Shown here piece after piece: positions 14,332 through 37,945 of a stretch of DNA of 40,460 bases (the first letter of the stretch is position 1; each line of letters begins with the position of its first letter). The notes beneath the pieces were generated by a model, which did not search any database, was not told the DNA's origin, and was given only the letters and a program-made list of their open reading frames with translations. Source of the stretch: Paludibacter sp. (GTDB lineage Bacteria > Bacteroidota > Bacteroidia > Bacteroidales > Paludibacteraceae). Location: contig JADGPS010000024.1 in the NCBI GenBank assembly GCA_017882285.1, positions 1 through 40,460 of the forward strand. The letters are read 5' to 3'. The position numbers and the translations under genes were made by a program.

Positions 14332-14375
14332 AAATTGTTGATTTGATAATTTGAAAATGAAAATAAGTTGAAAAA

Positions 14376-14666: not shown

Positions 14667-14687
14667 ATTATTTTGTATTTAAACTGT

Positions 14688-16826: not shown

Positions 16827-16838
16827 CTTTAGTTCTGA

Positions 16839-17217: not shown

Positions 17218-17227
17218 CGTTTGTGAG

Positions 17228-17623
17228 TTATTTAGGTAAAGTTACATTCCCTTTTATCTGCAATATTACTGTTGAATTCTTTGCATTTGAATTTACAGTA
17301 ATTGACTTGTTAAAAGTTCCCGGTATTTTGGTGTTGTAATTAATTTTTATTACACCTGTTTTTCCTGGTAAGACTGGCTCTTTTGTCCAGTCGGCAATGG
17401 TGCAACCGCACGCTGGTTTAACATTACTAACTACCAAAGGAGTTTTCATTCCGTTGGTAAATTTGAATTCATAATTACCAGAACTGCCAACTTCAATAGT
17501 ACCATAATCATGAATCAACCCAGTAAAATTGATTGAATCATTTTGTTTGATTTTTTGCTTTTGTGCAAATATCACAATAGAAGTTAGACAGATTAGAAAC
17601 AAAAATGCTACAATTTTTTTCAT
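17228..17623 (-). CDS. DUF1573 exported protein
   Basis: A 131-residue protein with a cleavable-looking signal peptide (KKIVAFLFLICLTSIVIFA). A single DUF1573 immunoglobulin-like domain follows: IHDYGTIEVGSSGNYEFKFT, then NVKPACGCTIADWTKEPVLP and GVIKINYNTKIPGTFNKSI. The CGC motif is family-typical. It is probably periplasmic. DUF1573 proteins are abundant in Bacteroidetes and have no set function. Its location between the ABC ATPase gene (4 bp) and arsD (10 bp) places it firmly in the arsenic operon, where the CGC thiols could bind metalloid; this last point is inference. Confidence 0.85.
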   Translation of the reverse strand: MKKIVAFLFLICLTSIVIFAQKQKIKQNDSINFTGLIHDYGTIEVGSSGNYEFKFTNGMKTPLVVSNVKPACGCTIADWTKEPVLPGKTGVIKINYNTKIPGTFNKSITVNSNAKNSTVILQIKGNVTLPK

Positions 17624-17627
17624 GATT

Positions 17628-18305
17628 TTAATTTTTAATTATTTGTAATTTACCGTTCTTTAGTTGAATTTTTGTATTGCCGTATTCAGCAGCCATTGGG
17701 CTATGCGTTACCATTACCACAGTGGTTCCCTGTTTTTGGTTTATCTCTTTTAAAATGCCCAGAATTTCTTCCGATAGACTTGGGTCAAGATTTCCGGTTG
17801 GTTCGTCGGCAAGCAATAAATCAGGGTTGTTGGCCAAAGCCCGGGCTATTGCCACACGTTGTTGCTGACCTGCTGAAAGTTCTTTGGGGTAATGGGTAGT
17901 TCTGTCGGACAACCCAACCCATTCCAATAATTCTAATGCCCGTTTTCGGTTTTTATCCTTGTCGTTTTCTTTTACGTTTAAAGCAATAGAAATGTTTTCC
18001 AACGCTGTAAGGTAAGGTATCAGGGCAAAACTCTGCATTACGAAACCTACATGATTGCTGCGGAAAGTAGCCATGTCCTTTTCTTTTTGCAAATCTAATT
18101 CCTTGGCATTATATTTCATTTTACCTGAAGTAGGTTGTAATAAACCACCCAAAATCAAGAGTAAAGTAGTTTTTCCCGAACCCGAAGCACCTGTTATGGT
18201 AACATATGAGCCTTTTGGAATATCCAGTGAAAGATTATCAACCGCATTGATAGCTCCATCGTGGCGTTGATATGTTTTTGTGAGATTATTTATTTGTATC
18301 AGCAT
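17628..18305 (-). CDS. ABC transporter ATP-binding protein, LolD/MacB type
   Basis: A 225-residue ATPase with all motifs: Walker A GASGSGKTTLL (about residues 39-49), Q-loop GFVMQSFALIPYLT, signature LSAGQQQRVAIARAL, Walker B LLLADEPTGNLD and switch His in VMVTHSP. It belongs to the LolD/MacB/FtsE-like group that works with FtsX-type permeases, and the permease gene lies only 3 bp upstream. Together they form a mechanotransmission-type ABC complex, which usually acts on periplasmic lipoproteins, peptides or toxins rather than on ions. Its presence in an arsenic operon suggests export of an arsenic conjugate or an envelope repair task. Confidence 0.93.
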   Translation of the reverse strand: MLIQINNLTKTYQRHDGAINAVDNLSLDIPKGSYVTITGASGSGKTTLLLILGGLLQPTSGKMKYNAKELDLQKEKDMATFRSNHVGFVMQSFALIPYLTALENISIALNVKENDKDKNRKRALELLEWVGLSDRTTHYPKELSAGQQQRVAIARALANNPDLLLADEPTGNLDPSLSEEILGILKEINQKQGTTVVMVTHSPMAAEYGNTKIQLKNGKLQIIKN

Positions 18306-18308
18306 AAT

Positions 18309-19526
18309 TTAGTCCTCCTGCATGTTTGAAAATGGTTCGATTTTTCCGGCCATATAAGCTGGAATAAGAGAGCCTAAAACTGAAATGAAAATTGATAAAC
18401 CAATGGATAAAAGTAGCAACGTGTAAATTGGACTCACTACTATTCCAATGAATTGTGGACCCAACCAAACGGCTGCCAATGTTCCAACAATGTATCCGGC
18501 TATTCCACCCACAATACCCATTATCAAGGCTTTCAATACCAAGATATAATAAATGTGGCGTTTGTGATACCCAATCATGCGGAGAATTCCAATTTCTTTG
18601 CGGCGTTCGTTCACGTTAGCCCAAATATAATTTCCAATGGAAATGCTACCAACAAAAAGAATAATGATTAGAAAAACCAATGATATTTTATTCATCATTC
18701 GGTTGGTTTCTATTTGTGTAGAAACAATTTGACCAATGGTGGTGATACGTGTATCGGGCAAAATATTTCGCATTTTGCTTAGTAAACCATCCGAAATGGC
18801 ACTGCAACAGCCCATAATTTCGATAGCACTAATTTGTTCGCCGGTTGCTAAAAGCTTTTGAACTGTATGTAAGTTGGCAAACACACGGTCATCATCCACA
18901 GTACCTGTTTCGGGTAGCACTTTTACAATGCTAAAACTTTTCTTTTCTATGGTAAGTGTGCCTTGTTCTTTTAAATTGAGTCGTTGAGCTACAGCAGAAC
19001 CAACAAAACAATCCGATTCAGCAAGGTCTTGAATTCCTTTTCGTTGCAACTTTGGGTCTAAGTATTTGGCGGGTGCTGTACCCGGTTTTGGTGCACAACT
19101 GGCATTAACTTTATTGCCTTGAATTCCATTTTGTTGCCAAATTGGTTTGGAGGCAATTTCGCTTTTTGGTAAAATACCTGTCAGTACAATATTCTCGTTT
19201 CCAATTTTTACACGTCGGGAAAGTTTTGGCGACATATTATCCACGCCGGGCAAAGTGGAAGTTACTATTTTTTCTACATAACTTTCGGGGAAGGTTGGTG
19301 CGTCAATATCGGCAGAGTAGTAATTATCTACACTGGTTGCTTGTGGCAACACCAGAATGTTTGCCCCTAAATTGTCGAGGTTTACCGCCACTGCTTTTTC
19401 GGAAACGACAGAAATAGTGCGTATGCCTACAATTACTCCAATTCCAAGGGTTATAGCCAATAAACCGGAAGTAAGCTGCGACTTGCGATGCCACAGCTCT
19501 TTTATTGTTAAATCGATTAATCTCAT
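18309..19526 (-). CDS. FtsX/MacB-like ABC permease
   Basis: A 405-residue permease with the MacB topology: one N-terminal membrane segment (about 19-38), a large periplasmic domain (about 45-275), and three C-terminal segments (about 285-395) with the FtsX-like NERRKEIGILRMIGYHKRHI. The periplasmic domain has four or more cysteines, in NASCAP, ESDCF and the pair MGCCSA, unusual for MacB-like permeases and attractive as metalloid ligands. The pairing with the ATPase gene 3 bp downstream is clear. It is inner-membrane. The substrate is unknown; position within an arsenic operon is the only guide. Confidence 0.9.
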   Translation of the reverse strand: MRLIDLTIKELWHRKSQLTSGLLAITLGIGVIVGIRTISVVSEKAVAVNLDNLGANILVLPQATSVDNYYSADIDAPTFPESYVEKIVTSTLPGVDNMSPKLSRRVKIGNENIVLTGILPKSEIASKPIWQQNGIQGNKVNASCAPKPGTAPAKYLDPKLQRKGIQDLAESDCFVGSAVAQRLNLKEQGTLTIEKKSFSIVKVLPETGTVDDDRVFANLHTVQKLLATGEQISAIEIMGCCSAISDGLLSKMRNILPDTRITTIGQIVSTQIETNRMMNKISLVFLIIILFVGSISIGNYIWANVNERRKEIGILRMIGYHKRHIYYILVLKALIMGIVGGIAGYIVGTLAAVWLGPQFIGIVVSPIYTLLLLSIGLSIFISVLGSLIPAYMAGKIEPFSNMQED

Positions 19527-19571
19527 TTTTTTGATATTAAGTTCTGCTCAATTGAAGATTTGAAAATGTGT

Positions 19572-20402
19572 TTATTTAGCACATCCGGCAGGTCCACAAC
19601 CAGATCCACAACCGCCTTTTACTACAGCAACCGCCGCCGCAGCTAATTTTGAAGCATCGGGTGTTGTAGTAGAAGTTCCTGATACCTGACCTTGTGCATT
19701 GATTACTATTGTTACAGAAGCCTTCGACAATTTATCTATTCGAAGTTGGTTCATAAAACTGTTTTCTCTGCTATCATCCATATCCACTTCAACAAGAACG
19801 GCATTATTTTTTAATTTTGTAACAGCATCCTTTCCAATTTTAAGCACTTCCGATTTATCAACATGAGATTTTTTAGTAAATACCACAATGGCTGGTTTTT
19901 TATTTTCCATAGCTGCATAAACTACTTCCATTTTAGGCGAAGGGACGAGAGCTGCAATATTTGCGGAAGTTGCATCTGCAAGTGCATATCCTCCTGTTGC
20001 CATACCTTTGCTCGAAAGAACAAGAATAAGTGGAACCGGAGTGCCGGATAATCTCCATTCAGTTACTAAAGGTTCATTAATAGGCAAATCCTTATTCATT
20101 TGAATTACAGTTGCATTCTTGTAAATAGCATTTGCACCTTTGGCAATAGTCATTGCTTTATTAAGATCTGTCGCACCTGTTCCGGTTACAACTACAAATA
20201 CCGCTTTACCAGCTGCTTTGGCTTGGTTGAGTTCCGCCTGTAATGGAGAAGTAGCCTTAACGGTTTGTTTTACTTGTGTTTGTTGATTAGCACTGTTTTC
20301 GGAACTTGCCTGACTGTTCTCTTTTTTTGGGTTTGCACAAGCATTAAATGTGATTGCTACTAAAAGCAGCGATAGTAGCTGCAATTTCTTTGAAACTTTC
20401 AT
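19572..20402 (-). CDS. Lipoprotein with thioredoxin-like domains and Cys-rich tail
   Basis: A 276-residue lipoprotein. The signal peptide ends in FNAC (Cys at about 22), a Ser/Gln/Asn-rich linker reaches about residue 55, and two repeated alpha/beta domains follow (about 55-150, with KAVFVVVTGTGATDLNKAM, and about 155-260, with KPAIVVFTKKSHVDKSEVL). They look like thioredoxin-type folds without a CxxC. The tail ends in KGGCGSGCGPAGCAK, with three Cys, a probable thiol metal or arsenite site. It is most likely periplasmic and membrane-anchored. It follows arsR by 33 bp and precedes the FtsX-type permease, so it may be that transporter's binding partner. I know no established function. Confidence 0.75.
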   Translation of the reverse strand: MKVSKKLQLLSLLLVAITFNACANPKKENSQASSENSANQQTQVKQTVKATSPLQAELNQAKAAGKAVFVVVTGTGATDLNKAMTIAKGANAIYKNATVIQMNKDLPINEPLVTEWRLSGTPVPLILVLSSKGMATGGYALADATSANIAALVPSPKMEVVYAAMENKKPAIVVFTKKSHVDKSEVLKIGKDAVTKLKNNAVLVEVDMDDSRENSFMNQLRIDKLSKASVTIVINAQGQVSGTSTTTPDASKLAAAAVAVVKGGCGSGCGPAGCAK

Positions 20403-20435
20403 AATGAATTATTTTAAATTGTTTTGGTAATTAGT

Positions 20436-20780
20436 TTAATTACAATGGTTTTCATTTGTGCAGTCTACATCAACTGCCTTTATTTGAGCGAAAAAAGTGT
20501 CGAAAAGCTCCAGTTTCTCTGCAATACAGTTTCCACACAAGCAATAATTGATTTTCATACCATCAATTTCGCCATGAATCAATCCCATATCACGCAATTC
20601 TTTTAAATGCTGCGAAACGGTGGTTCGACTCAAGGGCAGTTTGTCGGAAATATCACCCGAAATGCAGGACTTGGTTTCTGCCAAATACTTTAGAATTGCC
20701 AAACGAGCAGGGTGTGAAATTACTTTGGCGAATGTGGCTAACTCTTGTAGCTCTTTTTCAAATACTTCTGATTTTATCAT
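20436..20780 (-). CDS. arsR: ArsR-family transcriptional repressor
   Basis: A winged-helix regulator of about 114 residues with the ArsR/SmtB layout: VISHPARLAILKYLA, then the recognition helix LSRTTVSQHLKELRDMGLI and the wing GEIDGMKINYCLCGNCI. The CLCGNC cysteines near the end of the wing, and CTNENHC at the C-terminus, are likely arsenite ligands; they differ in place from the E. coli ArsR site. The ATG at 20780 is chosen because the longer frame's ATG (20813) lies inside the promoter and operator, upstream of the likely transcription start. It should repress the cluster through the dyad at 20794-20813. Confidence 0.93.
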   Translation of the reverse strand: MIKSEVFEKELQELATFAKVISHPARLAILKYLAETKSCISGDISDKLPLSRTTVSQHLKELRDMGLIHGEIDGMKINYCLCGNCIAEKLELFDTFFAQIKAVDVDCTNENHCN

Positions 20781-20793
20781 GATGAGTTGTTGT

Positions 20794-20813
20794 ATGTCGC
20801 AAACATACGACAT
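20794..20813 (-). promoter_or_regulatory. arsR promoter -7 box inside an ArsR operator dyad
   Basis: On the minus strand the perfect dyad ATGTCG-N8-CGACAT encloses TATGTTTG (20800-20807), an exact Bacteroidetes TAnnTTTG promoter box. Binding of a repressor to the arms would block the polymerase directly. The transcript would start about 7-10 bp further on, leaving a short leader to the ATG at 20780. Confidence 0.75.
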
Positions 20814-21334: not shown

Positions 21335-21345
21335 ACGTTTACTGT

Positions 21346-21627
21346 TTAATTGATTTGTAAATTTTTAATATGTTCCACAATCTCATTTGCTTTTTCTTTT
21401 GTGAAAGGTGTTTTTCCTTTTACAATGTCGAAATCGGTTGTGTTGATATGTGTAATGTCAGTAATACCTTCTTTTCCAAGAATTTTCTCTGCACAGTTTA
21501 TCGGGCAGCCGTCCAAAACAATAATTTTAGTTTGCTGCGCTTTTACTTTTTTGCGGAAAGTGGGGAAATGGAGTAAAGCGGATATTTTACATATCCGCTT
21601 TTTCCTCTTAATCCCCATAATCCTCAT
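21346..21627 (-). pseudogene. DGC-domain protein, N-terminally truncated
   Basis: The last about 60 residues match the C-terminal half of DGC-domain (putative zinc-binding) proteins: KIIVLDGCPINCAEKIL, then ITHINTTDFDIVKGKTPFT. The normal first half, with its own CSG metal motif, is absent. Upstream of about 21545 the frame runs into Arg/Lys-rich sequence with no similarity, and a hairpin lies at 21575-21604. The gene has therefore been cut, and its present first ~28 codons are fortuitous. It sits 11 bp before the thioredoxin gene. The break coincides with the start of the island that carries the DISARM-like operon. Confidence 0.7.
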
Positions 21628-21645: not shown

Positions 21646-21953
21646 TTCTATTTATTATAAAAACCAAAGGTTGTCATTTCCTATGTGTTTGTAGGAATGT
21701 CGCCACCATTGAAATGTGGGGCGATATGAGCAACCATTTCGGGGTATATAGTTTACTGTTCATCTCCACTATATATACGCCAATTTGACCTAACTTTTTT
21801 TCAGTCTAAACAAAAATTTTAATTCTTGGAAAATCATCTTCATTGCAATTTCAATCTATCTCGCCAAAATGGCGAGATAATGGCGAGATAATTTATTTGT
21901 TAGATTTTCAGGTTTCTTATCTCGCCAAAAAGGCGAAGTAATGGCGAGATAAT
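21628..21953. other. Structured non-coding region
   Basis: No open frame of interest is present. The region holds a three-way-junction-like fold (21668-21734), a weaker inverted repeat built on TATATAGT / ACTATATA (about 21743-21774), and two copies of a palindromic unit TATCTCGCC-N5-GGCGAGATA starting 61 bp apart (21857 and 21918). Each unit is followed by a further GGCGAGATA. This density of inverted repeats is far above the rest of the window. Confidence 0.6.
21857..21952. repeat. Duplicated palindromic unit
   Basis: TATCTCGCC-AAAAT-GGCGAGATA (21857-21879) is followed by GGCGAGATA (21882-21890). A second, slightly decayed copy (TATCTCGCC at 21918, GGCGAAGTA, then GGCGAGATA at 21943) begins 61 bp later. 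It lies just beyond the stop of the winged-helix remnant, where related genes often encode short repeated tails, so the copies may be decayed coding repeats or operator sites. Confidence 0.7.
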
Positions 21954-22157
21954 CTATAAATTGATTAGATAGCTTATGCTTGGTCCAGCACCTAATTTAG
22001 AAATCAATTTTAAGTCAGTAAATTTCTTTAGCAAACGTTCTGCAGTTCTGGTGGGTAATCCAGTACTGATGGCAAATTCGGATTTAGTAATGGATTTATT
22101 GTTTCTGAAAATTTCAAAAGCCACCAACTCTTCGTTGCTAAGTTTATGTGGTTGATT
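21954..22157 (-). pseudogene. Winged-helix domain remnant, no start codon
   Basis: A 67-codon open stretch without an ATG reads HKLSNEELVAFEIFRNNK, KSEFAISTGLPTRTAERLLK and KKFTDLKLISKLGAGPSISY, then stops at 21954. This is a helix-turn-helix with wing, as found at the C-terminus of Fic-type and AlbA/ATP-binding regulatory proteins of Bacteroidetes. An in-frame stop (22158-22160) precedes it, seven bases past the end of the DrmB-like gene. It therefore seems to be the leftover C-terminus of a larger gene, cut when the operon arrived. Expression as a separate protein would need a non-ATG start. Confidence 0.55.
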
Positions 22158-22164: not shown

Positions 22165-24282
22165 TCAATAGTTTTGACTGAAAAATCCAAATTCATCGTC
22201 AACTAAAGCTCTACGGTCTAACCCTAAATTACGCTGTTCGCAGGACGTCTCTGATACAAGACAACATGAAAAGCAAGCTGCTAAATTGAGTTGTTCATCG
22301 GCTTCCCAACAGAGTGGGTCAGAAGAGCAACTTTGAGATCTTTCTAATGCAGAGAATATAATCTTTTGTATTAATCGCGGTTGACCTTGCCATACTAAAC
22401 CACCCATGCTACCTTCAGAACCATCGGCAGTATAAATTAAAACACCACACATCCTATCAGAGTAATATAAACGCTCCTTTAAACTTGCTGTCGGGTAGCC
22501 GCAACTAAATTCGAGTTCCTTGAGTATAATATGAGAGAAAGTGTGTAATAGGTAAAACATAGGTACACCATATTCATCCATTTCCTCTTTCAATGACTTA
22601 CCCAATTCGCCCGGTGATTTATTATATCTTTTTGCAAAGATCGTTTCAAATTGATTCGTCCATTGATTTATAGTGTCTCTATTAAATTCAAAGAAAATAC
22701 CTTCTCCAAAAACTTGATTTGCAGGCAGGGTAAATACTTCGTTTGTTTCATCGAAAATAGCTTGGCCTTGTTCTCTTATTACTTCTCCATTAATTCGTTT
22801 TGGTGTTGGTATTGAAACCCGATTAAATCCAAGTTGAGTACTTGTTATTGCTAATGTGGAAACTTGTTGAATTTTTTTGAAATACAAATCTAATTCTTCC
22901 GGTAATTTAATGTCATTAAACTCTAACTTATTTGAATCCTTATTAGAAGTCACATTTTCTGAAAATACTGTGAACTCTTCAAATTTGTATTGTTCTCTAT
23001 CGTCCATAACATCTTCCTTGACTTGGAGGAAATGTTTTTTGATAATTTCAGCTTCTGATTCAGTAATACTAAAACCGGCAATGTCTGCATTATCTATTAT
23101 AATATCTATTGAATCAACATACTTTTCTTTTGATAGAGTTGAGTCTTTATCTAATGCTTTTGGGAACCATTTTGAATTTAGCAATTCAAGAATCTTTTGC
23201 AAATGTATATTTGTAAGTGTATCATTCAGATAACAAACAGGAATATATAAACTATTAAATGAATCAGCGTAATATACACTATTACTCGTTGCCAATACAA
23301 ATTGCATAGTGCAACGAGTTCCATCAGTTGTTGACTTGCATGGGTTTTCAGACTTTGTATTCAGACCATTCCAAGGTGTTTCACCAGGGCATATAGGTCT
23401 AATGTTCATAATACCTTCTAAACTGTAATTCTTTAGACATTTACTGCATTTAAGAATACCCCAACTCTCTGATTGATTTCGGTTCTCAATCCATTGTAAC
23501 TCATGCTTACCCCCTGAATCACATTCTTTGCACTCATACTCAAAAAGAGGAAAACCCTTATCTTGCATCATTTCTTGTCTCTTGCCATCAATGCCAGCAC
23601 AAAATAGTTGATACCAAGGAATATCAGAAATATGACCATTCTTGCAAATTAGCAACATGGGAATCTGGTTAAGCGGTGCAAATACTTTATATGACTTATT
23701 ATTATCTTTGAAATAACGTGAAGTCTCAGAATAAGGATCTCTTGGCGGGGCAAAGAATTTTAAATTACCTTCATCACAGTTTTTTTGTTTCCAAAGTCTT
23801 TTCCATTCCGTAATTTCTTTGAAAGAACCGTTCTTAGAGCTATAAAACCAACGAGGGAAATGAACTGCCGGAATAACAAAATGATCATCAGTTAATTGAG
23901 AACCAACATCTTTTAGATATTTAGTATACAATGGGTGATTGTCCTTTTGTGGAGTGTTCCAATCATTTAAGTTTAAATGAGGAACTTCAACCAAACATTT
24001 CAAATCATTAATGGCTTGCTCATGTTTTAGAAAGCTTATAAACCTAGGATCGTCAATTATGTCGACACCACTTGATCTGGCAATAGAAGCCATATCATTG
24101 TCATTTTTATGTGCTAAAATATATTTATTTACATTCTTAATAAAACCCCAAAGTGATACTGATTGAGGCATGATAAAAAACCCCAACTTAGTTGTTATTA
24201 TTGAACCAACCCCGGCATTTGAAGAAAGTACTTTATATTTACCAACACCTTGATTGTATTGAAAATCCTTGTATATTTCCAT
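22165..24282 (-). CDS. drmB: DrmB-like DUF1998-domain protein
   Basis: A 705-residue protein. Its C-terminal quarter is a clear DUF1998 domain: GVLIYTADGSEGSMGGLVWQ, then SSDPLCWEADEQLNLAACFS and CLVSETSCEQRNLGLDRR, containing the conserved Cys set. The middle has zinc-ribbon-like Cys pairs (ICKNGH, YECKECD, LKCSKCLKNY, about residues 210-290). This is the architecture of DrmB of the DISARM antiphage system, and DUF1998 proteins act with SF2 helicases. It is 11 bp downstream of the helicase gene and last in the four-gene operon. It is cytosolic. The family assignment is good; membership of true DISARM is uncertain because other DISARM genes are missing. Confidence 0.82.
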   Translation of the reverse strand: MEIYKDFQYNQGVGKYKVLSSNAGVGSIITTKLGFFIMPQSVSLWGFIKNVNKYILAHKNDNDMASIARSSGVDIIDDPRFISFLKHEQAINDLKCLVEVPHLNLNDWNTPQKDNHPLYTKYLKDVGSQLTDDHFVIPAVHFPRWFYSSKNGSFKEITEWKRLWKQKNCDEGNLKFFAPPRDPYSETSRYFKDNNKSYKVFAPLNQIPMLLICKNGHISDIPWYQLFCAGIDGKRQEMMQDKGFPLFEYECKECDSGGKHELQWIENRNQSESWGILKCSKCLKNYSLEGIMNIRPICPGETPWNGLNTKSENPCKSTTDGTRCTMQFVLATSNSVYYADSFNSLYIPVCYLNDTLTNIHLQKILELLNSKWFPKALDKDSTLSKEKYVDSIDIIIDNADIAGFSITESEAEIIKKHFLQVKEDVMDDREQYKFEEFTVFSENVTSNKDSNKLEFNDIKLPEELDLYFKKIQQVSTLAITSTQLGFNRVSIPTPKRINGEVIREQGQAIFDETNEVFTLPANQVFGEGIFFEFNRDTINQWTNQFETIFAKRYNKSPGELGKSLKEEMDEYGVPMFYLLHTFSHIILKELEFSCGYPTASLKERLYYSDRMCGVLIYTADGSEGSMGGLVWQGQPRLIQKIIFSALERSQSCSSDPLCWEADEQLNLAACFSCCLVSETSCEQRNLGLDRRALVDDEFGFFSQNY

Positions 24283-24293
24283 AGTATAAGAAT

Positions 24294-27200
24294 TTAGTTA
24301 TTCTCTTTTATTTTAATTACAGCTTCAGCTTCAACAGTTCTCAATGATTGAGGAACATTCCAAAGACTATTGTTTTGGTCACTTTCATACGCATCTAATG
24401 ACGTAAATAAGTCTTGGGAAAGCTCACCTCTTTTTTTCTTTTTATTGATATATTCAGATCCCGAATATATCAATTTATAATTACCATTGTCTTGTTCAAT
24501 TGCAAGGTGTAGCCATTCGTCGACAGCAGTACTTATGAAATCTTCGATATTTTTCTCTAAATCGTTATTTAGAAGATCTTTCATTGATTCATCTAATTTT
24601 TGAGTTCGGTCTAAGCGTTCTTTGAAATAAACATTCAACTCTTGTTTGATTTTGTTTGATAATGAACTTTCAATATGCCCGGCAGAGTGTTTGTCTGCAA
24701 TAGCATCATATGTGTGTCGAACAATTGTTGCCAAATATAATGGCAGATATTTTTCAACTGATTTTTTCGAAAATGGTGTAATTGAAATTGGTTCAACGTA
24801 AAAATACATTTTTTCATGAAACTCACGGAATTTCTCAAAATGAGAAAGATCTCTTGAACGGAAAGGATTATGAAGTGTAACTACTAATCCAAAGTCGTTT
24901 CGAGCCACACGACTACTTGCCTGAATGTATTCTGCAATGTTACGAGGCATTGAATTCATAATAATTGTATTGAATCTATCCACATCAAGTCCAACAGAAA
25001 TCATATTTGTTGCTAAAATAAAATCTGGTGGTGTTTTACCTTTTCTCCATTCTGTGTCCGTTTCATTATCTTTGTAAGGAAGTCTAAGTGAAGGCGCCCA
25101 GTTTTTACCAACTAATTCAAGTTGGTCAACTACTTCAGAGCCCGATAAACGACCAGTTAATTCAGATTTACTAAAAGACGAATCGTAAGCATAAAAACAT
25201 TCCAGCATATCGCTATATCTCAATACACGTTTAAATAAACGACGTGTGTATTTTGTGAACTCACTATAAAACTGAGCATCAGTTTTTCCTACTTCTTTAA
25301 GACTATTGAAATATGAAATAATTGAGAAATAAAAATCTGCTGCTTTGACGAACTGCGGTTCATCTATTTTGTCTTTATGCTCTTTTTCAAACAATGCCCT
25401 ATGAATAAACATTATTGCAGCCAACCTCATTTGTGTAGTCATTTGAGTTCTGCCTGTTGGTAGAATGCCCATATATTTACGTTTGGCTACAAACTCTACC
25501 TCATTATTCTCTTGCTTTCTTTTGTAGAACGAGAAAAATGAATCATCATAGTCAATGCCATTCTTAGGGAATATATTTACATCTCTATCATATAATGCAC
25601 GAATTTGTAGTTCGGTATTTCGAGTCGTTGCTGTTGAAGATATTATTTTAGGACGAATACTAATCTTGCTGCCATCAGGTAATAGTTTTTTTCGAGTACA
25701 TAACTGATCAATTGCAGCTTCAAATAGACTAACTGCTGAACCTAAAGGACCTAATAGTAGGTGTAATTCATCTTGGATTATTAGATCGGGAGTTAAATAT
25801 CTCAAATTACCTTTACCAAAAATTCTACGAGAATCTTCAGTCTGTTTTAATGTCGATACATTATGTGCAATTGCAGCAAACTTATCCACAGTACCAAAAA
25901 GCAAAGTAGGAGGTGTGGAGTAAATATAATCATCGCATAGTACAACAGGTAGCTTGTCTGAAAATGAGCAATTAATATTTTTACACCTAAACTCAATAAT
26001 GGGTGAAGATTCACTGCCTTTATTGTTGTACTCTAAAAAATTACCACACCAAGGACATCTATCCAATGGTATCTTGGATTCCGATCTTTTGTTGTTATTT
26101 ATGTTTTGCCATTTGTTGCACTCAATCAATAATCCTGCTGCATGATTAGGAAGTGAGGAATCTCCAACAAAAAGACCAATAGAAATAGCTTCAGTACCTA
26201 AATCTGAAGTATTCCATTTTCTAATTTGGTCAAGTGCCATTATGACTCTTAATGCTCTTTGAAACTGTTGTGTTGCAAGTAATCGTAGAGTATAACGCAT
26301 GATAGCTGTTGTACCACCTGAACCCGTAGGTTCAGTTCTTCTACGGTTTATAATAGTAAGTGCTATTATCCCTAAATAAGCTTCTGTTTTACCGCCACCG
26401 GTTGGAAACCAAACTAAATCAACTAATTCATTTCGTTTTCCCCAATTCTTGTCATCTTCACGTTGAAATACACCATCAAGATTGAGCAATATAAATGCAA
26501 TCTGGAAAGGTCTCCATGTTGCAGAGCCTGCATTCGGGAAAATAAAATCGCTGGCATTTTTGTAGAAATCCGGTTGAAGTTTTATAGTACTTACAGCATT
26601 TCTATTATCTTTTTTGCTGTGCCATAGTTGAATAAACATTGCGGCATTCATTAATCTGAATGACTTTATATTTGACGGACTATTTTCTAAAAGCAATTTT
26701 ATATTGCTTCTCATTCTTAAATAATCACTTCGGCAATTATCAATGTTATGTTTTGAAAACTCGTTTTTTTCTTTATCCTCAATTTCAATAGTGGATATCC
26801 ACTCTCCATATGCATCAACAAACTTATATAGATTATCTATTATCTCAGAGTCTGTTGCATTTGAGAGGGTTGACAGCCATTTGAATTCTAAAGCTTTACT
26901 GTCTGCTAATAGTGGCTTTGGTACTATATCTTCATTTTCTTCAACCCAATTATTTATATCACGTTTATCACGGGGTATAGGCTCTACATCGGGTGTTTCG
27001 TAAGTTGGAATAAATTCAGATTTTATATATCTAACATTGTTTTCTAAACCCCAACTAACTGAACAAAAATGACCAGTACCATAATCGTCTATTGATCTGT
27101 ATAAATAATTTAGTCGATCAGCATCATCATTTATATCTAAATATTTAGTTGTTTGACGATAAGTACAAAGGTGCTCACTTGCAACCTTTATTTCAGCTCC

Positions 27201-28424
27201 AAAGAAACAACGTTGATTCACTTTCTCAGTTACAATTGAAAAGTAGTGCTTGTTATCTTCTTCAAATTCAGTGGAAGTATTTTCAATCTGTACTTTGATA
27301 TATCTTTTTTTATTTGTTGAATCCCTACTATCTTTTGTTACTTGCAACCATACGGATAATGAGGCATTTATTTCCTCCTCTATTTTAAATGATACTACGT
27401 TTCTTAGATTTGAATACTTTCTTGGTGAGAAAATCACTTTATTAGATTCACTGTTAAGGTTTAATCCTGAGACATCGATTGTTGAAGAAAAAGGATTTGC
27501 CTTCCAAAATCCAAATCCTTTAGTATTATAGATACTAAGAACATCTTCTAAATATGATAGAAATGTTTCGTAAAGTTCAATTTTAGATATTCTAATAATT
27601 GTACTTTGTTTGTCAGCTTCCGAAAGATATTCAACTCCATTATTTTTTATAGACTTTAATTTTCTGAATAGTCTTTCTTTGTATGATTTGAGATATTGAT
27701 ATTGTCCGGAAATTTTCCTAAACTCTTCTTCGAGATTGCCATCATTGCCTGTTGCAATTTCTTTGGCAAGTAGCATATTGATTCCTAAAATTGTATTTTT
27801 TATCTCAGAAAAATGTTTTGACAAATCTCCAGTTGCAAAAACTACATTGTTGTTAAGTGTGAAATGTGGTTTTAAATCGTTTTCGTATTTTTTGTAGAAT
27901 GAATTAAATTCATCAAAATGATCTTCAATTCTAACATAGACTTTTTCTCTGTCTTGCTTTGTTATTTTTGAATAATATCGACCTGAGATTATTATTGATA
28001 AATTTTCTGCATTTTTGAGACTTTCCTGACAGTCAAAACAACACGAGATACCCATACTATTTGGGAATCTTTGGCTTAGTGAAAATAAATCATCTTCTTC
28101 TGATTGAGTTAGTGTGCAGCTACTATCTTCATAATCAGAAGGAAGATTGAGACTCTCCTCTTCAGGATTGGTCAATAAGTTTTCTTCAGTATTTTCAGAG
28201 TTTTGATCTATTGAAGAATTAACCATTAAAGATTGAAGTTTCCTTTTTGGGAAAAGTATAGCAGTACTATAAAGCGAACCAGGAGTCGTGTTTATGATTT
28301 CAATAGGTTTTTCTATATCTTCATTTTCTTCGGAAAGATAACCAAATCGATTATTACAGGCTCCCGGTCCTTCCATCTGATCCCGAATAAATTGTTCTAA
28401 AGAATCTCTTTTAGTTTTTATCAT
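24294..28424 (-). CDS. drmA: DrmA-like SF2 helicase
   Basis: A protein of about 1376 residues. The N-terminal half lacks recognised motifs. The helicase core starts near residue 675 with Walker A WFPTGGGKTEAYLG. A zinc finger DRCPWCGN...CKNINC lies near 790, Walker B LIIQDELHLLLGPLG near 885, and SSTATTRN follows. The second RecA domain has ATNMISVGLDVDRFN and YIQASSRVARNDFG (about 1130-1180). The embedded zinc finger and GGGKTEAY loop are typical of DrmA of DISARM. I chose ATG at 28424; the longer frame opens with TTG at 28439. It overlaps the end of the 788-aa gene by 14 bp, so translation is probably coupled. It likely loads on or translocates phage DNA. Confidence 0.85.
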   Translation of the reverse strand: MIKTKRDSLEQFIRDQMEGPGACNNRFGYLSEENEDIEKPIEIINTTPGSLYSTAILFPKRKLQSLMVNSSIDQNSENTEENLLTNPEEESLNLPSDYEDSSCTLTQSEEDDLFSLSQRFPNSMGISCCFDCQESLKNAENLSIIISGRYYSKITKQDREKVYVRIEDHFDEFNSFYKKYENDLKPHFTLNNNVVFATGDLSKHFSEIKNTILGINMLLAKEIATGNDGNLEEEFRKISGQYQYLKSYKERLFRKLKSIKNNGVEYLSEADKQSTIIRISKIELYETFLSYLEDVLSIYNTKGFGFWKANPFSSTIDVSGLNLNSESNKVIFSPRKYSNLRNVVSFKIEEEINASLSVWLQVTKDSRDSTNKKRYIKVQIENTSTEFEEDNKHYFSIVTEKVNQRCFFGAEIKVASEHLCTYRQTTKYLDINDDADRLNYLYRSIDDYGTGHFCSVSWGLENNVRYIKSEFIPTYETPDVEPIPRDKRDINNWVEENEDIVPKPLLADSKALEFKWLSTLSNATDSEIIDNLYKFVDAYGEWISTIEIEDKEKNEFSKHNIDNCRSDYLRMRSNIKLLLENSPSNIKSFRLMNAAMFIQLWHSKKDNRNAVSTIKLQPDFYKNASDFIFPNAGSATWRPFQIAFILLNLDGVFQREDDKNWGKRNELVDLVWFPTGGGKTEAYLGIIALTIINRRRTEPTGSGGTTAIMRYTLRLLATQQFQRALRVIMALDQIRKWNTSDLGTEAISIGLFVGDSSLPNHAAGLLIECNKWQNINNNKRSESKIPLDRCPWCGNFLEYNNKGSESSPIIEFRCKNINCSFSDKLPVVLCDDYIYSTPPTLLFGTVDKFAAIAHNVSTLKQTEDSRRIFGKGNLRYLTPDLIIQDELHLLLGPLGSAVSLFEAAIDQLCTRKKLLPDGSKISIRPKIISSTATTRNTELQIRALYDRDVNIFPKNGIDYDDSFFSFYKRKQENNEVEFVAKRKYMGILPTGRTQMTTQMRLAAIMFIHRALFEKEHKDKIDEPQFVKAADFYFSIISYFNSLKEVGKTDAQFYSEFTKYTRRLFKRVLRYSDMLECFYAYDSSFSKSELTGRLSGSEVVDQLELVGKNWAPSLRLPYKDNETDTEWRKGKTPPDFILATNMISVGLDVDRFNTIIMNSMPRNIAEYIQASSRVARNDFGLVVTLHNPFRSRDLSHFEKFREFHEKMYFYVEPISITPFSKKSVEKYLPLYLATIVRHTYDAIADKHSAGHIESSLSNKIKQELNVYFKERLDRTQKLDESMKDLLNNDLEKNIEDFISTAVDEWLHLAIEQDNGNYKLIYSGSEYINKKKKRGELSQDLFTSLDAYESDQNNSLWNVPQSLRTVEAEAVIKIKENN

Positions 28425-30777
28425 AATCAAATCTTTCAACAGGTTTCAAATCTATTTCTTGAAGTAAAAGTTCTTTCAAACTGATTAAGTCACTATATGA
28501 ATTCGCGTTTATAAGAATCAATATATCAGAATAGTCATATTGAAATTTCTCGAATTCATCTGCCTCAATGTTGACAAATAAGAGATTCTTTAATAGATTT
28601 TCAATTAGCATATTCATTTTTCGAGTACCATTGATATTAGCAAGTTTCTTTGTAGTAATGATTTTTTGATATGCAGAACCAATTTCAATACCTAAAAATG
28701 AAAGTACAGATTTTTGGTCTTTTTTGCTTCGAGGTAAGATTATTTTACTCGATAAATTATACCACTGACTAAATGCATTTGTAGAAACGCGTTCATTTTC
28801 AGGGATTGCCGCTAAAACATCTTCATAAACTTTCTTAGCTCCATACACATCAACCTTACGTTTTAAAAGTATTTTCCATAATTCAATGGTTGAAGATTTT
28901 TCTTCCTCAGATAAATTATACTTTACATCAGATCTGATAATTTTCTCTACATTATTATTTTCATTAATTGCTTCTGTGATTAATATTTTTACTTTTTCTG
29001 TAATATCCTCCAATAATTGAATTGATATATTTTCAAGGTCAAAAATTTCTTTGACTACAGCAATTGAACAAACATCATTTACTTTGTATATTACATCCTG
29101 TGAAAGAGATATCTCTTTATCTTTCAGTCCATTTTTAAAATGGATTCTACATTTTTCAGTTTGATATGGGCGGTGATTGTTTTCTTCATCATCTTCATCA
29201 ATAAAATCTTTTGGTGAAGTAGATTGAGGGCGTATAAATGACAATACTTTCCAATTCAAGAATTCTTTTCTGAAATTAGAATATAATACGCCGTTAAATT
29301 TATGATAGTACCAATAATAATCCCACTCAAATAAAGAGTCGTGAGTAAGATTGTTGACAATTGAGAGTGCTTCTTGCCCATTATTTAGACAAAGTTCATC
29401 GAATGAGTTTGGGTATAAAGCGAGTGCTCCATTTGGAGACTTATATTGCATTATTATAATTTTTTCTGCTTCTACAGAAGTATTATAACGACCTTTGTTT
29501 TTGGAAAATTTTAAATCTTCAAACTTGTAAAAACGAATATTTCTATTACCAACCTGAAACAAATTAACGATAGAGTTCTTTATATCACTTGGAGTATCTT
29601 TTTCTACAATAAATGCTATTTTATTACTTACTTCAATAAAGCTCTGAATTCGGGGGGCAATGTCTTTTTGCCAAACCTGACTTAAAAGAGTATAATATCC
29701 ATTACACATTTCATGTTTGAAATCAGGTATATTTCTGGATAACAAACCTGAAAATTGCCTTTGGTTCTTATCGCTCCAACATAACGAAAGTCGGTTCCTA
29801 ATTTTGATATTATATTCAATGTTTTCAATAAAAGTTTCAATTTCATTTGAAAAGAATATTCTATCTGGAGAATCAATTATCACTCTATGAAATCTATTAT
29901 TCCTGTTAAACAAGTAATTGGATTCTTTTTGAGTAAATGTTATGAAGTTATCGAAATCGTTGTATTTGTTTATTATTCTTTGGAGATATACTGAAATATA
30001 TTTCTTCTTGATTGATTCAATAGTATTGTTAAGTATGAATGGTTTTCCCGATATTGAAAAAACAAAGCAATTTTTTATGCCAAGACCATATTGATTCAAT
30101 CTATCCAATTGATTTTTACAATAAGAACTTGAAACCATATTTCTAACATGTAATATGAAAATATTTTCAATAGGCACTGGTTGGTGCATTTCTTTTATTC
30201 TATCCTCTAATGTATAAGCATCTGTTTCGGTGCTTGCAAGCAAATTGTAACGCTTATTGTTGATACAATTAATATCTGTATAAAAACTATTAATGTAAAG
30301 ATTCTTATCTTCTTTTGTGACAAATAAGTCAGATTCTTTATAGATAATAAGATTCTTCGTGCCGACACCATCAGTTATGTTAGTATCTTTAAATTTTGAG
30401 CAAATATTACGAAAATAGTGTTTGCGTCCCTTTATTTCCAAAAATTCTTTGTTGGACTTACAGATAATGTCTTTTGACTTGTCTTCGTTAAAACGGTTTA
30501 ATGTAGAATTATCGTGGAATAGGGCTGTCTTGTGGATCAAGAATTCTAGAAAAAGTTCCCTGCTCCATGGTTCACAAGCAGGCAAGTGGATAATATGAAA
30601 ATTTATATCATTTTGAATACATGACAAAGATAATTTGTAGTCAATAATGTTATTCATTAGATTTAGAAAGCGTTTTCCATCTTCCTTCTTCGAGTGAAAC
30701 ATTGTCTCAAAAATTAAACTGAATTCAGTAGATTCAGAATTGACTAATGATGTAAACTGTTCTTTTAGATTGCCCAT
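28411..30777 (-). CDS. Unknown 788-aa protein of DISARM-like operon
   Basis: A 788-residue, Lys/Asn/Ile-rich, probably cytosolic protein that I cannot assign to a family. There is no signal peptide, membrane segment, Walker motif or methyltransferase motif. Residues about 60-80 hold NFHIIHLPACEPWSRELFLE. Around 320-420 are NRFHRVIIDSPDRIFFSNEI and KIAFIVEKDTPSDIKNSIVN. An acidic stretch DFIDEDDEEN lies near 535, and the C-terminal third is strongly helical. It starts 12 bp after the radical SAM gene and overlaps the helicase gene by 14 bp. By size and place it could correspond to DrmE of class 2 DISARM, but I cannot show this. It may be the specificity or effector component. Confidence 0.7.
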   Translation of the reverse strand: MGNLKEQFTSLVNSESTEFSLIFETMFHSKKEDGKRFLNLMNNIIDYKLSLSCIQNDINFHIIHLPACEPWSRELFLEFLIHKTALFHDNSTLNRFNEDKSKDIICKSNKEFLEIKGRKHYFRNICSKFKDTNITDGVGTKNLIIYKESDLFVTKEDKNLYINSFYTDINCINNKRYNLLASTETDAYTLEDRIKEMHQPVPIENIFILHVRNMVSSSYCKNQLDRLNQYGLGIKNCFVFSISGKPFILNNTIESIKKKYISVYLQRIINKYNDFDNFITFTQKESNYLFNRNNRFHRVIIDSPDRIFFSNEIETFIENIEYNIKIRNRLSLCWSDKNQRQFSGLLSRNIPDFKHEMCNGYYTLLSQVWQKDIAPRIQSFIEVSNKIAFIVEKDTPSDIKNSIVNLFQVGNRNIRFYKFEDLKFSKNKGRYNTSVEAEKIIIMQYKSPNGALALYPNSFDELCLNNGQEALSIVNNLTHDSLFEWDYYWYYHKFNGVLYSNFRKEFLNWKVLSFIRPQSTSPKDFIDEDDEENNHRPYQTEKCRIHFKNGLKDKEISLSQDVIYKVNDVCSIAVVKEIFDLENISIQLLEDITEKVKILITEAINENNNVEKIIRSDVKYNLSEEEKSSTIELWKILLKRKVDVYGAKKVYEDVLAAIPENERVSTNAFSQWYNLSSKIILPRSKKDQKSVLSFLGIEIGSAYQKIITTKKLANINGTRKMNMLIENLLKNLLFVNIEADEFEKFQYDYSDILILINANSYSDLISLKELLLQEIDLKPVERFDYDKN

Positions 30778-30789
30778 ATCATTAAATTT

Positions 30790-31986
30790 CTAGTCTGTTG
30801 CCCATAAGGCTGGATTGATAGTGCTATCATATTTCATATTGAAATAATGATTTAATTGAGGGGCATATTCGGGAAAGTTACTCAAAAAGTCCTCATAGGT
30901 TTTCAATGACATACATTTGTTGTCTGTCTTTACCCAAAATTGATTACGATCAATAAATTCTTTGAAAGACATTTTTTTATAAAATTGTGGTTGGTTGCAC
31001 CAACGCGCAATTTGAACATAAATGTTGTTTAGTGGGTGATTCCTATAATCTTCATGTCTCATAACATACCCTAAACAACCAAAACTCATTAAGACTTCAA
31101 TTCGCTCAAAGAGATGGAGAATATCATTAATAAGTGAATGGTCATCTGATATTTCATAACCACAAAACAAATAAAGTTTTGTCGTTTTTTTTGTGTATCG
31201 TTTCCAGATTTTTAGTTTTTTGTCAATAAGTTCTTTGTCCTTAATTTGGTCAAATGCAAATATGAAATCACCATGATATTTTGATTTTGCCAACATTTCT
31301 GCTTTTTCCTCATTGACAAGTCTTATGTCTAAACCTTGTCTGAATTGAAATGGCTTGTTTGTTGCTTGTAATTCAAGTAATAATGGTTTCCAGTCTTTTG
31401 AAGCTAAAAAGTTGTCATCCCAAAGATAAATCATTGGACGACTGTTGTCCACAAAATCAAGTAAGTTGGAGTAGTTGTATACGTAGTCTATATTTTTGTT
31501 TACACAAAATGGGCATTTTCTAATGCAACCGCGTGTTAGAAAACCAATTGAAAAAAATTGATAATCTTTATAATTTTGAGGATTTTTACCATGCCTAATT
31601 TCGCCCGCAACGTACTCATCATACAGAGTGTAATCAGGCATTTGACTTGCCATATTAAAGTCTGGGAGATTTGGGTCAAGTTCTAATCTTGCCATATCAT
31701 CTTCACGTTGCTGATTGAATAATTCAAGATCATCTTCCTCAACGTAATAACCTGTACCACCCTTTATAATTTTTGAAGGATCAATTTTATCAAGGAATGA
31801 AGGCACTTTTGTGAAGGTAAATACTTTGGAAACGTAGATAAATGAATATTTTGAAATGTCATCATTATTGTAGATAAATTTGTAAGGTATATTTCGATCA
31901 CGGAAATAACCAGCCAATTTCATCAAAACAAGGTTTGGGTGTCTTGTTCCATTATCTAATAAATCTGCATCAACAATTCCAAACAT
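30790..31986 (-). CDS. Radical SAM protein, first gene of DISARM-like operon
   Basis: A 398-residue protein. The radical SAM cluster motif is C154-x3-C158-x2-C161, within GFLTRGCIRKCPFCVNKN. Residues 1-80 form an alpha/beta region (MFGIVDADLL...IYVSKVFTF) resembling the cobalamin-binding-like domain that precedes many radical SAM modules, though the cobalamin DxHxxG signature is absent. Downstream, IYLWDDNFLASKDW and FRQGLDIRLVNEEKAEML are typical TIM-barrel segments. It would cleave S-adenosylmethionine to a radical; the substrate is unknown. Similar proteins occur in phages and defence loci. It lies first in a tight operon (12 bp to the next gene) after a promoter with a dyad operator. Confidence 0.85.
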   Translation of the reverse strand: MFGIVDADLLDNGTRHPNLVLMKLAGYFRDRNIPYKFIYNNDDISKYSFIYVSKVFTFTKVPSFLDKIDPSKIIKGGTGYYVEEDDLELFNQQREDDMARLELDPNLPDFNMASQMPDYTLYDEYVAGEIRHGKNPQNYKDYQFFSIGFLTRGCIRKCPFCVNKNIDYVYNYSNLLDFVDNSRPMIYLWDDNFLASKDWKPLLLELQATNKPFQFRQGLDIRLVNEEKAEMLAKSKYHGDFIFAFDQIKDKELIDKKLKIWKRYTKKTTKLYLFCGYEISDDHSLINDILHLFERIEVLMSFGCLGYVMRHEDYRNHPLNNIYVQIARWCNQPQFYKKMSFKEFIDRNQFWVKTDNKCMSLKTYEDFLSNFPEYAPQLNHYFNMKYDSTINPALWATD

Positions 31987-32046
31987 TAATTTTCTAATTT
32001 ATGATTCTAGTATTTTATTATCTGAGTTTCAAAACAGAAAGTCTAT

Positions 32047-32094
32047 TTGACAATTGTTGTCAATTAGTGAATTTTTTAGTATTATGCAAAGGTA
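32047..32094 (-). promoter_or_regulatory. Promoter and dyad operator of the DISARM-like operon
   Basis: On the minus strand TACCTTTG (32087-32094) is an exact TAnnTTTG promoter box about 100 bp before the radical SAM ATG. About 24 bp further on, within the predicted leader, is the perfect dyad TTGACAA-TTG-TTGTCAA (32047-32063). A repressor bound there would block the operon. Confidence 0.6.
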
Positions 32095-32133
32095 ATAAAT
32101 TTTAATGTATTTATTCTTTTTTGACGAAAACAA

Positions 32134-32169
32134 AACAGACCAACCTAATTTTCATTAAGTTGGTCTGTT
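32134..32169. terminator. Hairpin terminator after dnaK
   Basis: AACAGACCAAC (32134-32144) pairs perfectly with GTTGGTCTGTT (32159-32169), with a short inner TAA/TTA pairing, and T-rich sequence follows on the minus strand. It ends dnaK transcription and separates it from the DISARM-like operon promoter. The outer arms share AACAGACCAA with the terminator at 12821. Confidence 0.85.
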
Positions 32170-32198
32170 CTTTAAGTCCCCTTTAGGGGATTTAGGGG
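32165..32198. repeat. Dispersed CCCCTAAA-type repeat, copy 2
   Basis: Identical over 34 bp to 16839-16872. Here it starts two bases beyond the dnaK stop codon and overlaps the right arm of the dnaK terminator. The same orientation relative to the upstream gene in both places suggests insertion or selection at gene 3' ends. Confidence 0.85.
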
Positions 32199-32200
32199 CA

Positions 32201-36757: not shown

Positions 36758-37945
36758 ATGATTACTATAATATTAAAACCCAAAAAGGAAGAAAGTTTAC
36801 AACGTTTTCATCCATGGGTGTTTTCAGGTGCCATTCAACGCATGGAAGGAAAACCTGCCGAAGGTGATTTGGTAGAAGTGCTCGACAGCAACCGTAATTT
36901 CCTGGCAATAGGTCATTATCAGATTGGTAGCATTGCCGTAAGGGTTGTATCATTTGAAAATATAGCGATTAACGACAATTTTTGGAATCGTAAAATTCTG
37001 CAGGCTTATGTTATGCGTAAATCACTTGGTTTGATTGTTCCGAATTACACTAACACGTATCGGTTGATTCATGGCGAAGGTGATTCGTTGCCGGGATTAA
37101 TTGTGGATGTTTATGACGATACAGTAGTGATGCAGGCACATTCGATTGGCATGCACGAAATTCGTGAAACGATTGCCAAAGCTATTGTGGCCAATGTGCC
37201 CGAAGTGAAAAACGTGTATTATAAATCGGAAACCACTTTGCCTTTTAAAGCGGCTATTGAACCGGAAGATGGCTATCTGATTGGAAAAGAAACGACTCAA
37301 CTAAGCGCACTCGAAAACGGTTTACGGTTTCACGTGGACTGGTTACGCGGACAAAAAACCGGATTTTTTGTTGATCAACGTGAGAATCGATTGTTGCTTG
37401 AAAGGTATTCTGCCGGAAAATCGATACTGAATATGTTTTGTTATACAGGCGGATTTTCGGTTTATGCCATGCGTGGCGGAGCAAAATTGGTGCATTCGGT
37501 GGATAGTTCGGCAAAAGCTATTGACTTGACTGATAAAAATGTTGAAGCTAATTTCCCGAAAGATTCGCGACATACATCTTTTGCCGAAGATGCCTTTAAA
37601 TATTTGAATAATCTCCACACACTAAATCAACAATACGATCTGATTATTCTTGATCCGCCTGCTTTTGCCAAACATCGCGAAGCATTACGCAATGCACTGA
37701 AAGGCTACAAGCGATTGAACGCCAAAGCTTTTGAGTTTATTAAACCCGGCGGAATATTATTTACGTTCTCATGTTCACAAGTGGTTACTAAAGAACAATT
37801 CAGATTGGCGGTTTTCAGTGCTGCAGCCGAAAGTAAACGCAATGTTCGCATTTTACACCAACTCTCACAACCGGCAGATCATCCCATTAATATTTACCAC
37901 CCCGAAGGAGAATATCTGAAAGGGTTGGTGCTTTGGGTAGAATAG
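36758..37945 (+). CDS. rlmI: Class I SAM-dependent rRNA methyltransferase, RlmI family
   Basis: A 395-residue protein with an N-terminal PUA domain (residues 1-80; LKPKKEESLQRFHPWVFSGA and VLDSNRNFLAIGHYQ), an EEHEA-like middle, and a Rossmann methyltransferase with the SAM motif ILNMFCYTGGFSVYAMRGGA (about 222-241) and catalytic region LIILDPPAFAK. TFSCSQ near residue 345 supplies the Cys typical of m5C enzymes. By analogy with RlmI it would methylate a cytosine of 23S rRNA. It lies 74 bp after the exonuclease gene. It is cytosolic and complete. The exact target base is inferred from the family only. Confidence 0.9.
   Translation: MITIILKPKKEESLQRFHPWVFSGAIQRMEGKPAEGDLVEVLDSNRNFLAIGHYQIGSIAVRVVSFENIAINDNFWNRKILQAYVMRKSLGLIVPNYTNTYRLIHGEGDSLPGLIVDVYDDTVVMQAHSIGMHEIRETIAKAIVANVPEVKNVYYKSETTLPFKAAIEPEDGYLIGKETTQLSALENGLRFHVDWLRGQKTGFFVDQRENRLLLERYSAGKSILNMFCYTGGFSVYAMRGGAKLVHSVDSSAKAIDLTDKNVEANFPKDSRHTSFAEDAFKYLNNLHTLNQQYDLIILDPPAFAKHREALRNALKGYKRLNAKAFEFIKPGGILFTFSCSQVVTKEQFRLAVFSAAAESKRNVRILHQLSQPADHPINIYHPEGEYLKGLVLWVE

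Follow-up and report, generated by a model that had tools for sequence, protein, structure and literature searches.

The stretch analysed here (the window) is one whole contig of 40,460 bases (C138) from the 3.18-Mb genome of a Paludibacter species (143 contigs, 98.29% complete), and it carries a real, rare and recurrent cassette that resembles the defence island system associated with restriction-modification (DISARM). The cassette consists of four co-directional minus-strand open reading frames (ORFs) behind the dnaK terminator, which encode, in order, a radical S-adenosylmethionine (SAM) enzyme (30790-31986), a 788-amino-acid protein (28411-30777), a DrmA-like helicase (24294-28439) and a DrmB-like protein (22165-24282). 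Its distinctive and new feature is the radical SAM enzyme, which stands where two related loci, L100 and L009, have a C5 methyltransferase (DrmMII elsewhere). We read the cassette as a DISARM-type defence against phages, with class 2 as its nearest counterpart, in which the radical SAM enzyme may write a self-mark on DNA that DrmAB respects. This reading is tentative, and we give it somewhat less than an even chance; the DNA mark is offered as a testable proposal.

Judged from their sequences, both core genes of DISARM are present, a putative DrmA helicase and a putative DrmB with DUF1998. The DrmA-like protein, a superfamily 2 helicase of the YprA family, scores 565 bits with the PADLOC DrmA model and 707 bits with NCBIfam NF038325 (DISARM_DrmAS), the latter below the equivalog cut-off of 950. 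The DrmB-like protein, which has a DUF1998/MZB zinc domain, scores 288.5 bits with NCBIfam NF038324 (DrmB_fam), above the cut-off of 240. In a phmmer search of the PDB, each protein gave one match, in both cases to its counterpart in the solved DrmAB complex (7s9v/7s9w), with chain A of 7s9v aligning to the DrmA of the window and chain B to its DrmB. When aligned with six other DrmA-like proteins, Walker A (FPTGGGKTEAYLG in the window), DELHL, the CxxC pairs and SRVAR are kept with small changes. No DrmA was found in phage records. The drmA ORF opens at a TTG codon (28439); the likely start is the ATG of MIKTKRD at 28424, because the homolog in locus L002 starts at the same MIKTKRD, and drmA would then occupy 24294-28424. 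With this start, the spacings within the cassette become 12, -14 and 11 bp, in agreement with the initial annotation, which had described four minus-strand genes spaced by -14 to 12 bp and had correctly taken the last two as DrmA-like and DrmB-like.

The first gene encodes a protein of 398 amino acids that matches the phage family phrog_9298, 'radical SAM domain protein', and carries the motif CIRKCPFC. This predicted cluster-binding motif (C154-x3-C158-x2-C161, residues 154-161, codons 31504-31527 on the minus strand) has three cysteines that do not vary across an alignment of 28 sequences, which includes that of the protein itself. The protein matched no Pfam radical SAM family, PF04055 included, even at an E-value of 10, and no PADLOC or NCBIfam model (PADLOC-DB at E 0.01), and neither the protein nor its profile found a sequence match in the PDB. 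An AlphaFold model based on the 28-sequence alignment reached a mean predicted local distance difference test score (pLDDT) of 87.7. Its only PDB structural match at E < 0.001 was OxsB, a cobalamin-dependent radical SAM enzyme (5ul3; E 3.9e-4 and probability 1.00, but a template modelling score of 0.35 and a root-mean-square deviation of 12.6); the next matches, HemN (E 0.13) and lipoyl synthase (E 0.20), were not significant. The superfamily is clear from these results, and no close solved relative was found in the structure library searched. The earlier placing of a radical SAM gene at the head of the cassette is thus upheld by motif, family and fold. In sequence, the enzyme is 39-42% identical to relatives in the phage records PV036431 and BK063680 and up to 47% identical to those in viral contigs. 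The radical SAM proteins of the window, the congeneric genome G023 and two further loci, L007 and L096, form one group (100/100) in a tree whose bootstrap had not converged, in which the L006 row is a wrongly chosen ORF (E 0.12) and the branch of L097 is long.

The place of this gene in the operon is what sets the cassette apart. In L100 (genome G047), the order is a C5 methyltransferase (44% identical to that of L009), DrmE (589 bits with NF038316), a NERD helicase and the start of drmA, at which point the contig ends. On a plasmid of Lactiplantibacillus plantarum (L009), a C5 methyltransferase (457 bits with PADLOC DrmMII) is followed by an 801-amino-acid protein, drmA and drmB. In the window and, as far as its contigs reach, in G023, the radical SAM gene occupies this first place, and its product is the proposed DNA-marking enzyme. 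Some relatives show neither enzyme, since three DNA methyltransferases used as blastp queries had no match in two DrmE-drmA-drmB loci, L101 and L008, or in the drmA-drmB loci L010, L011 and L012; type I restriction genes lie upstream in L012. The initial annotation had treated the lack of a methyltransferase as the distinguishing trait, a view that does not hold, as L101 and L008 likewise gave none and the lack is not itself unusual among DrmE-DrmA-DrmB loci; drmC, also not found here, is reported as non-essential (PMC9142583). On the Rhizobium plasmid that carries L011, where no methyltransferase was found, drmA-drmB are accompanied by a UvrD-helicase gene before them and a NERD-domain gene after them.

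That the locus lacks both a methyltransferase and drmC was nevertheless correct for the flanks examined. No DNA methyltransferase or drmC was found there in a Pfam scan that covered ten ORFs between 18.3 and 34.9 kb and an NCBIfam scan of ten ORFs between 20.9 and 40.1 kb, the ORFs between about 11 and 18 kb being examined by blastp and by eye only. All ORFs of at least 80 amino acids in the window were compared by blastp with the three DNA methyltransferases, with no match. The ORFs scanned within the cassette and next to it include no DrmC phospholipase D nuclease, and neither drmC nor a NERD gene was found as a nuclease candidate within it; six PLDc_2 matches lie on other contigs of the genome. 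The C5-cytosine methyltransferase family PF00145, which served as the test for DrmMII, had no match in the genome at its stated completeness, and a 5-methylcytosine mark is therefore probably not available there. Two other sources of a mark were considered and rejected. As to a DNA methyltransferase hidden in the flank, the scans just described turned up a single methyltransferase-like gene (36758-37945), which resembles ribosomal RNA methyltransferases of the RlmI kind, below the NCBIfam cut-offs; modification of a DndC-like or Dpd type was discarded because the cassette has no such gene.

The second gene encodes the least conserved of the four proteins in the comparison with G023. The initial annotation had called it a protein of unknown family, and under the thresholds applied it indeed had no match among the models of Pfam, PADLOC, NCBIfam and PHROG; the DrmE model NF038316 (DrmE_fam) did not match it at an E-value of 1. 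The corresponding gene of related loci, which directly precedes drmA or lies one gene further off, encodes 785-864 amino acids (483 as annotated in Nostoc). Besides the protein of L100, NF038316 recognises the counterpart in genome G541, read as L101 (114 bits), and gives matches below the cut-off in Hymenobacter and Nostoc, and a 792-amino-acid protein of Haliscomenobacter is 33% identical to the DrmE-like protein of G541. In a profile comparison, residues 630-696 of the 788-amino-acid family align with 688-752 of the L100 DrmE, at a score of 26.3 against a highest score of 20.6 in 100 column shuffles. With the C-termini alone, hhalign scored 26.9, at a probability of 9.4%, against a highest score of 20.9 in 200 column shuffles and 17.4 for the reversed profile. 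Its position, its size and this weak C-terminal match, which beats all column shuffles, suggest that the protein is probably a very divergent DrmE, so that it would not be the new component it had seemed. A structure predicted from two sequences had a mean pLDDT of 36.4 and was useless for fold comparison. Homologs of the protein are 47-48% identical in G023 and, in L007, 27% identical over the full length (794 amino acids, E 4e-87 to 4e-90); in L096, the homolog is reduced to a remnant of 207 amino acids. The protein was found in no plasmid record, a scan of viral contigs with its alignment found none, and the L007 homolog matched only itself in phage records.

The cassette recurs in G023. 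One contig of this genome carries the radical SAM gene (86-87% identity), the 788-amino-acid gene (48%) and the start of drmA, where it ends; a second begins with the rest of drmA (73% over 859 amino acids), with drmB (68%) directly after, and we infer that the two contigs join into one locus. The radical SAM protein is thus the most conserved of the four. After drmB, G023 has a gene for 164 amino acids, a prokaryotic Argonaute (784 bits) and, at the second gene beyond it, a weak match to AbiP (31 bits). The 7-kb record L007, which is unverified, comes from human faeces and is filed as 'Bacteriophage sp.', has a radical SAM gene, a NERD-domain helicase and the 794-amino-acid homolog, and then ends. 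L096, in genome G684, has another ORF, the radical SAM gene, a NERD helicase and the truncated homolog. The only DISARM_DrmAS match of G684 lies elsewhere in the genome (24.5 bits). We think that L096 is a decayed copy; otherwise it counts against strict linkage. The linkage of the first two genes to drmA and drmB, on which the initial annotation depended, is therefore seen in G023, could not be read in L007, which ends too soon, and fails in L096. As an aside, the NERD-UvrD helicases of these DISARM-like operons (L100:757-2496, before drmA; L007:2897-4636, before the 788-amino-acid homolog) have as their best PADLOC match a NERD helicase associated with defence-associated reverse transcriptases (DRT).

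The system is rare in the genomes sampled. The 788-amino-acid protein was found in two of 60 relatives (its own genome and G023) and in one of 395 genomes of the phylum (its own). The radical SAM profile found three of 393 genomes of the order at E 1e-20 (its own, G684 and, more weakly, G054) and, at E 1e-30, one of 395 genomes of the phylum (its own). A scan of genome contigs found one locus, apparently G023:C61, and a scan of viral contigs with two Bacteroidales radical SAM proteins found one distant copy.

Relatives of the enzyme are nonetheless common in viral contigs, and its family is carried mainly by phages. A relative was confirmed in 138 viral contigs, the best 80 of which were kept, with the gene called as an ORF in 74. 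BLAST linkage served to group the neighbouring genes, and the groups took their names from matches to two methyltransferases of locus L005, or by eye in the case of MetK. On the same strand within 300 bp, a ParB/N6-N4 methyltransferase group was present in 29 of the 74 loci and a C5 group in 21, and the MetK group lay within 2.5 kb in 22. After the removal of near-copies (88% identity), 49 non-redundant loci remained, with either methyltransferase within 300 bp in 20 and within 2.5 kb in 28. Pfam applied to the 89 complete immediate neighbours of these 49 loci gave N6_N4_Mtase 15 times and DNA_methylase nine times. Among 89 of 93 random control ORFs, drawn from these loci at a distance of three genes or more, N6_N4_Mtase occurred three times, and DNA_methylase was not among the 25 families listed and so occurred at most once. 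The enrichment (24/89 vs 3/89, Fisher p 1.2e-5; 24 vs 4, p 5e-5) comes from a test that assumes no overlap between the two Pfam families and independence of the neighbours, an assumption that does not hold for pairs from one locus. Phage DNA methyltransferases often carry fused ParB domains (PMC12783734). In phage record PV036431, the radical SAM gene has a ParB/N6-N4 methyltransferase on one side and a C5 methyltransferase on the other, and on the plasmid of an uncultured archaeon an intein-bearing relative (33% over 204 amino acids) is followed by three overlapping DNA methyltransferase genes. The phrog_9298 phage enzymes share family and motif with the enzyme of the window and differ in their company, often ParB-type and C5 DNA methyltransferases; the DrmA, DrmB and 788-amino-acid protein of the window had no match in the 80 viral loci. 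By eye, the viral loci L018 and L025 have methyltransferase-like neighbours.

PbeABCD is the restriction partner of DndCDEA phosphorothioation. On viral contig L016, Lamassu genes are followed by a relative of the enzyme of the window (47% identity), PbeA (724 bits), PbeC/DndD (339 bits) and a very weak PbeD match. The same family therefore stands first in a DISARM-like operon and, in one case, in a Pbe-like operon, whose restriction proteins are unrelated to those of the window. The L016 enzyme ORF abuts PbeA and, unlike that of the window, carries a C-terminal extension of about 270 amino acids. Its enzyme part and that of L017 are 94% identical; among the other 79 viral loci, nothing matches the L016 PbeC and nothing closely matches its PbeA, a sign that this arrangement moved recently. 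PAPS-reductase (DndC-type) had no match on the 31-kb L016 record, which is possibly a fragment. Lamassu (LmuA-LmuC-LmuB, L016:1205-4437) lies directly before the radical SAM/Pbe operon, and a DNA polymerase-like ORF was seen on the contig by eye; the Lamassu and Pbe genes of L016 are the defence cargo of a virus.

The current view of DISARM is that methylation, together with the structure of the DNA, lets it distinguish self from phage. In the mechanism we propose, DrmA and DrmB would form a helicase complex that loads on single-stranded or 5'-overhang DNA, the 788-amino-acid protein would fill the place of DrmE, and the radical SAM enzyme would modify host DNA with a base change that needs radical chemistry and is not simple 5-methylcytosine. 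DrmAB would then spare marked DNA and block unmarked DNA. The enzyme may well supply the protective mark, because 5-methylcytosine is reported to lower the ATPase of DrmAB (PMC9142583) and the genome has no PF00145 match. A broader proposal, which we regard as possible and more doubtful, is that one and the same radical SAM family introduces a novel mark other than methylation on DNA bases, used by phages alongside DNA methyltransferases and captured by bacteria or their viruses as a plug-in self-mark for two unrelated restriction machines, the DISARM-type DrmAB and Pbe.

Several observations weigh against the proposed mark or its broader form. The action of family members on DNA is suggested by gene context, and the link to Pbe comes from one locus. 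No clustered methyltransferase lies within 2.5 kb in 21 of the 49 non-redundant viral loci, nor in any of the ten copies nearest to that of the window (the best-scoring, L016-L025). The genome has seven N6/N4-type methyltransferase matches on other contigs, six of them over the cut-off, and a self-mark could come from these. The radical SAM gene, the 788-amino-acid gene and drmA occur together in the window and G023 only, which belong to the same genus, and the radical SAM gene of L096 is without drmA and drmB, of which tblastn finds no trace in the surrounding 19.5 kb. As to DrmE, the hhalign probability for the 788-amino-acid protein is 1-9%, hmmsearch among 992 ORFs lifts neither family above background for the other, and the 801-amino-acid protein of L009, which holds the corresponding position, shows no detectable relation to either family.

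An alternative possibility, unlikely and still to be taken seriously, is that the substrate of the radical SAM enzyme is RNA or a partner protein, such as the 788-amino-acid protein or a phage component, and that self is told from non-self by DNA structure alone. DrmE-DrmA-DrmB loci in which no methyltransferase was found do exist (L101, L008), and DrmAB recognises single-stranded DNA and 5' overhangs (PMC9142583). The viral structural matches of the enzyme model include one named tRNA methylthiotransferase, and clustered methyltransferases are absent from the viral loci whose copies are closest to that of the window. What this explanation leaves unaccounted for is the company of the family, namely DNA methyltransferases in many viral contigs and on the archaeal plasmid, and the Pbe operon.

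It is rather improbable that the enzyme is a second effector which makes a small antiviral molecule in the manner of the prokaryotic viperins, whose products are modified nucleotides. OxsB, the best solved match, acts on a deoxyadenosine nucleotide, which would suit such a role; the protein matched no PADLOC model, and we take that collection to include viperin models. Viperins are themselves radical SAM defence enzymes (PMC12926258), but the family is carried by viral contigs, often beside DNA methyltransferases, and DNA modification fits this better than a molecule that harms viruses. Equally improbable is a phage-derived passenger beside an ordinary methyltransferase-free DISARM-like system, for although relatives are common in viral contigs and rare in sampled genomes, and L101 has DrmE-DrmA-DrmB with no radical SAM gene, the gene stands first in a tight operon in the window and, within contig limits, in G023, encodes the best conserved of the four proteins, still adjoins the 788-amino-acid family, or lies one gene off, where the latter has fallen to 27% identity, and has four copies that form one tree group.

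The setting of the cassette is consistent with its description as AT-rich, the GC content being 0.320 against 0.381 for the remainder of the window. No empty insertion site could be demonstrated, as the genes after dnaK vary among the seven relatives compared. The gap between dnaK and the cassette (31987-32200, minus strand) holds the dnaK terminator (32171-32132, 18 pairs) and then 145 bp expected to carry the promoter. Three weak sigma-70-like sites lie there on the cassette strand (four over both strands, vs 1.9 expected), and TACCTTTG at 32094-32087 on the minus strand fits what we take to be the Bacteroidetes -7 box; the full Bacteroidetes promoter pattern with an upstream TTTG had no match in the gap. 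A single promoter for all four genes is plausible. Downstream of drmB, a palindrome-rich unit, TATCTCGCCAAAATGGCGAGATAATGGCGAGATAA, occurs in two 40-bp copies (21857-21957) that are 90% alike and 61 bp apart. Directly after drmB, at about 21955-22155 (minus strand), a short helix-turn-helix-like coding stretch (EFAISTGLPTRTAERLLKKF) was seen by eye and is a possible remnant of a regulator gene. Just below the cassette, at about 21345-21560 (minus strand), a coding-looking stretch containing KIIVLDGCPINCAEKILGKEGITDI, also read by eye, presumably resembles the 3' part of a gene for a small zinc-binding protein that lacks its 5' part, as if cut by an insertion. Beside the cassette lies an arsenic/thioredoxin-type cluster (12875-20813), with an ArsR-type regulator and an FtsX permease by Pfam and transporter-like and ArsA-like ORFs recognised by eye.

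Among known systems, the nearest is DISARM class 2, given as DrmA, DrmB, DrmC, DrmE and DrmMII in PMC9252829. The window shares with it the order of the DrmA and DrmB homologs, a gene of DrmE size ahead of drmA and a gene for a SAM-using enzyme in first place. It differs in having no DrmMII, no DrmC that was found and a radical SAM enzyme at the head, in a DrmE relation that is weakly detectable and in a DrmA below the NCBIfam equivalog cut-off. L101, from the Bacteroidales genome G541, and L008, on a plasmid of Haliscomenobacter hydrossis, share three of the four genes in the same order; they have no radical SAM gene, and their DrmE-like protein is matched by NF038316 (L101) or related to the one that is (L008). 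ARMADA, BRIGADE and Dpd have a YprA-family helicase in common with the window, and Dpd and BRIGADE carry non-methyl base modification genes, but their modification is described as 7-deazaguanine or PglX-type methylation (PMC12458937, in the main text of which 'radical' occurs only within 'radically'). In passages of papers that name both DISARM and radical SAM, including PMC9716671 and PMC12926258, the two occur in unconnected contexts (a nitrilase cluster, viperins, a gene flanking a hotspot, and ribosomally synthesised and post-translationally modified peptides), and no description of the combination was met in the literature searched, which excludes most subscription journals and bioRxiv. 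If the proposed reading is true, the exchange of a methyltransferase for a radical SAM enzyme would mean that the DISARM mark is interchangeable, and it would point to an undescribed DNA modification common to phages and their hosts.

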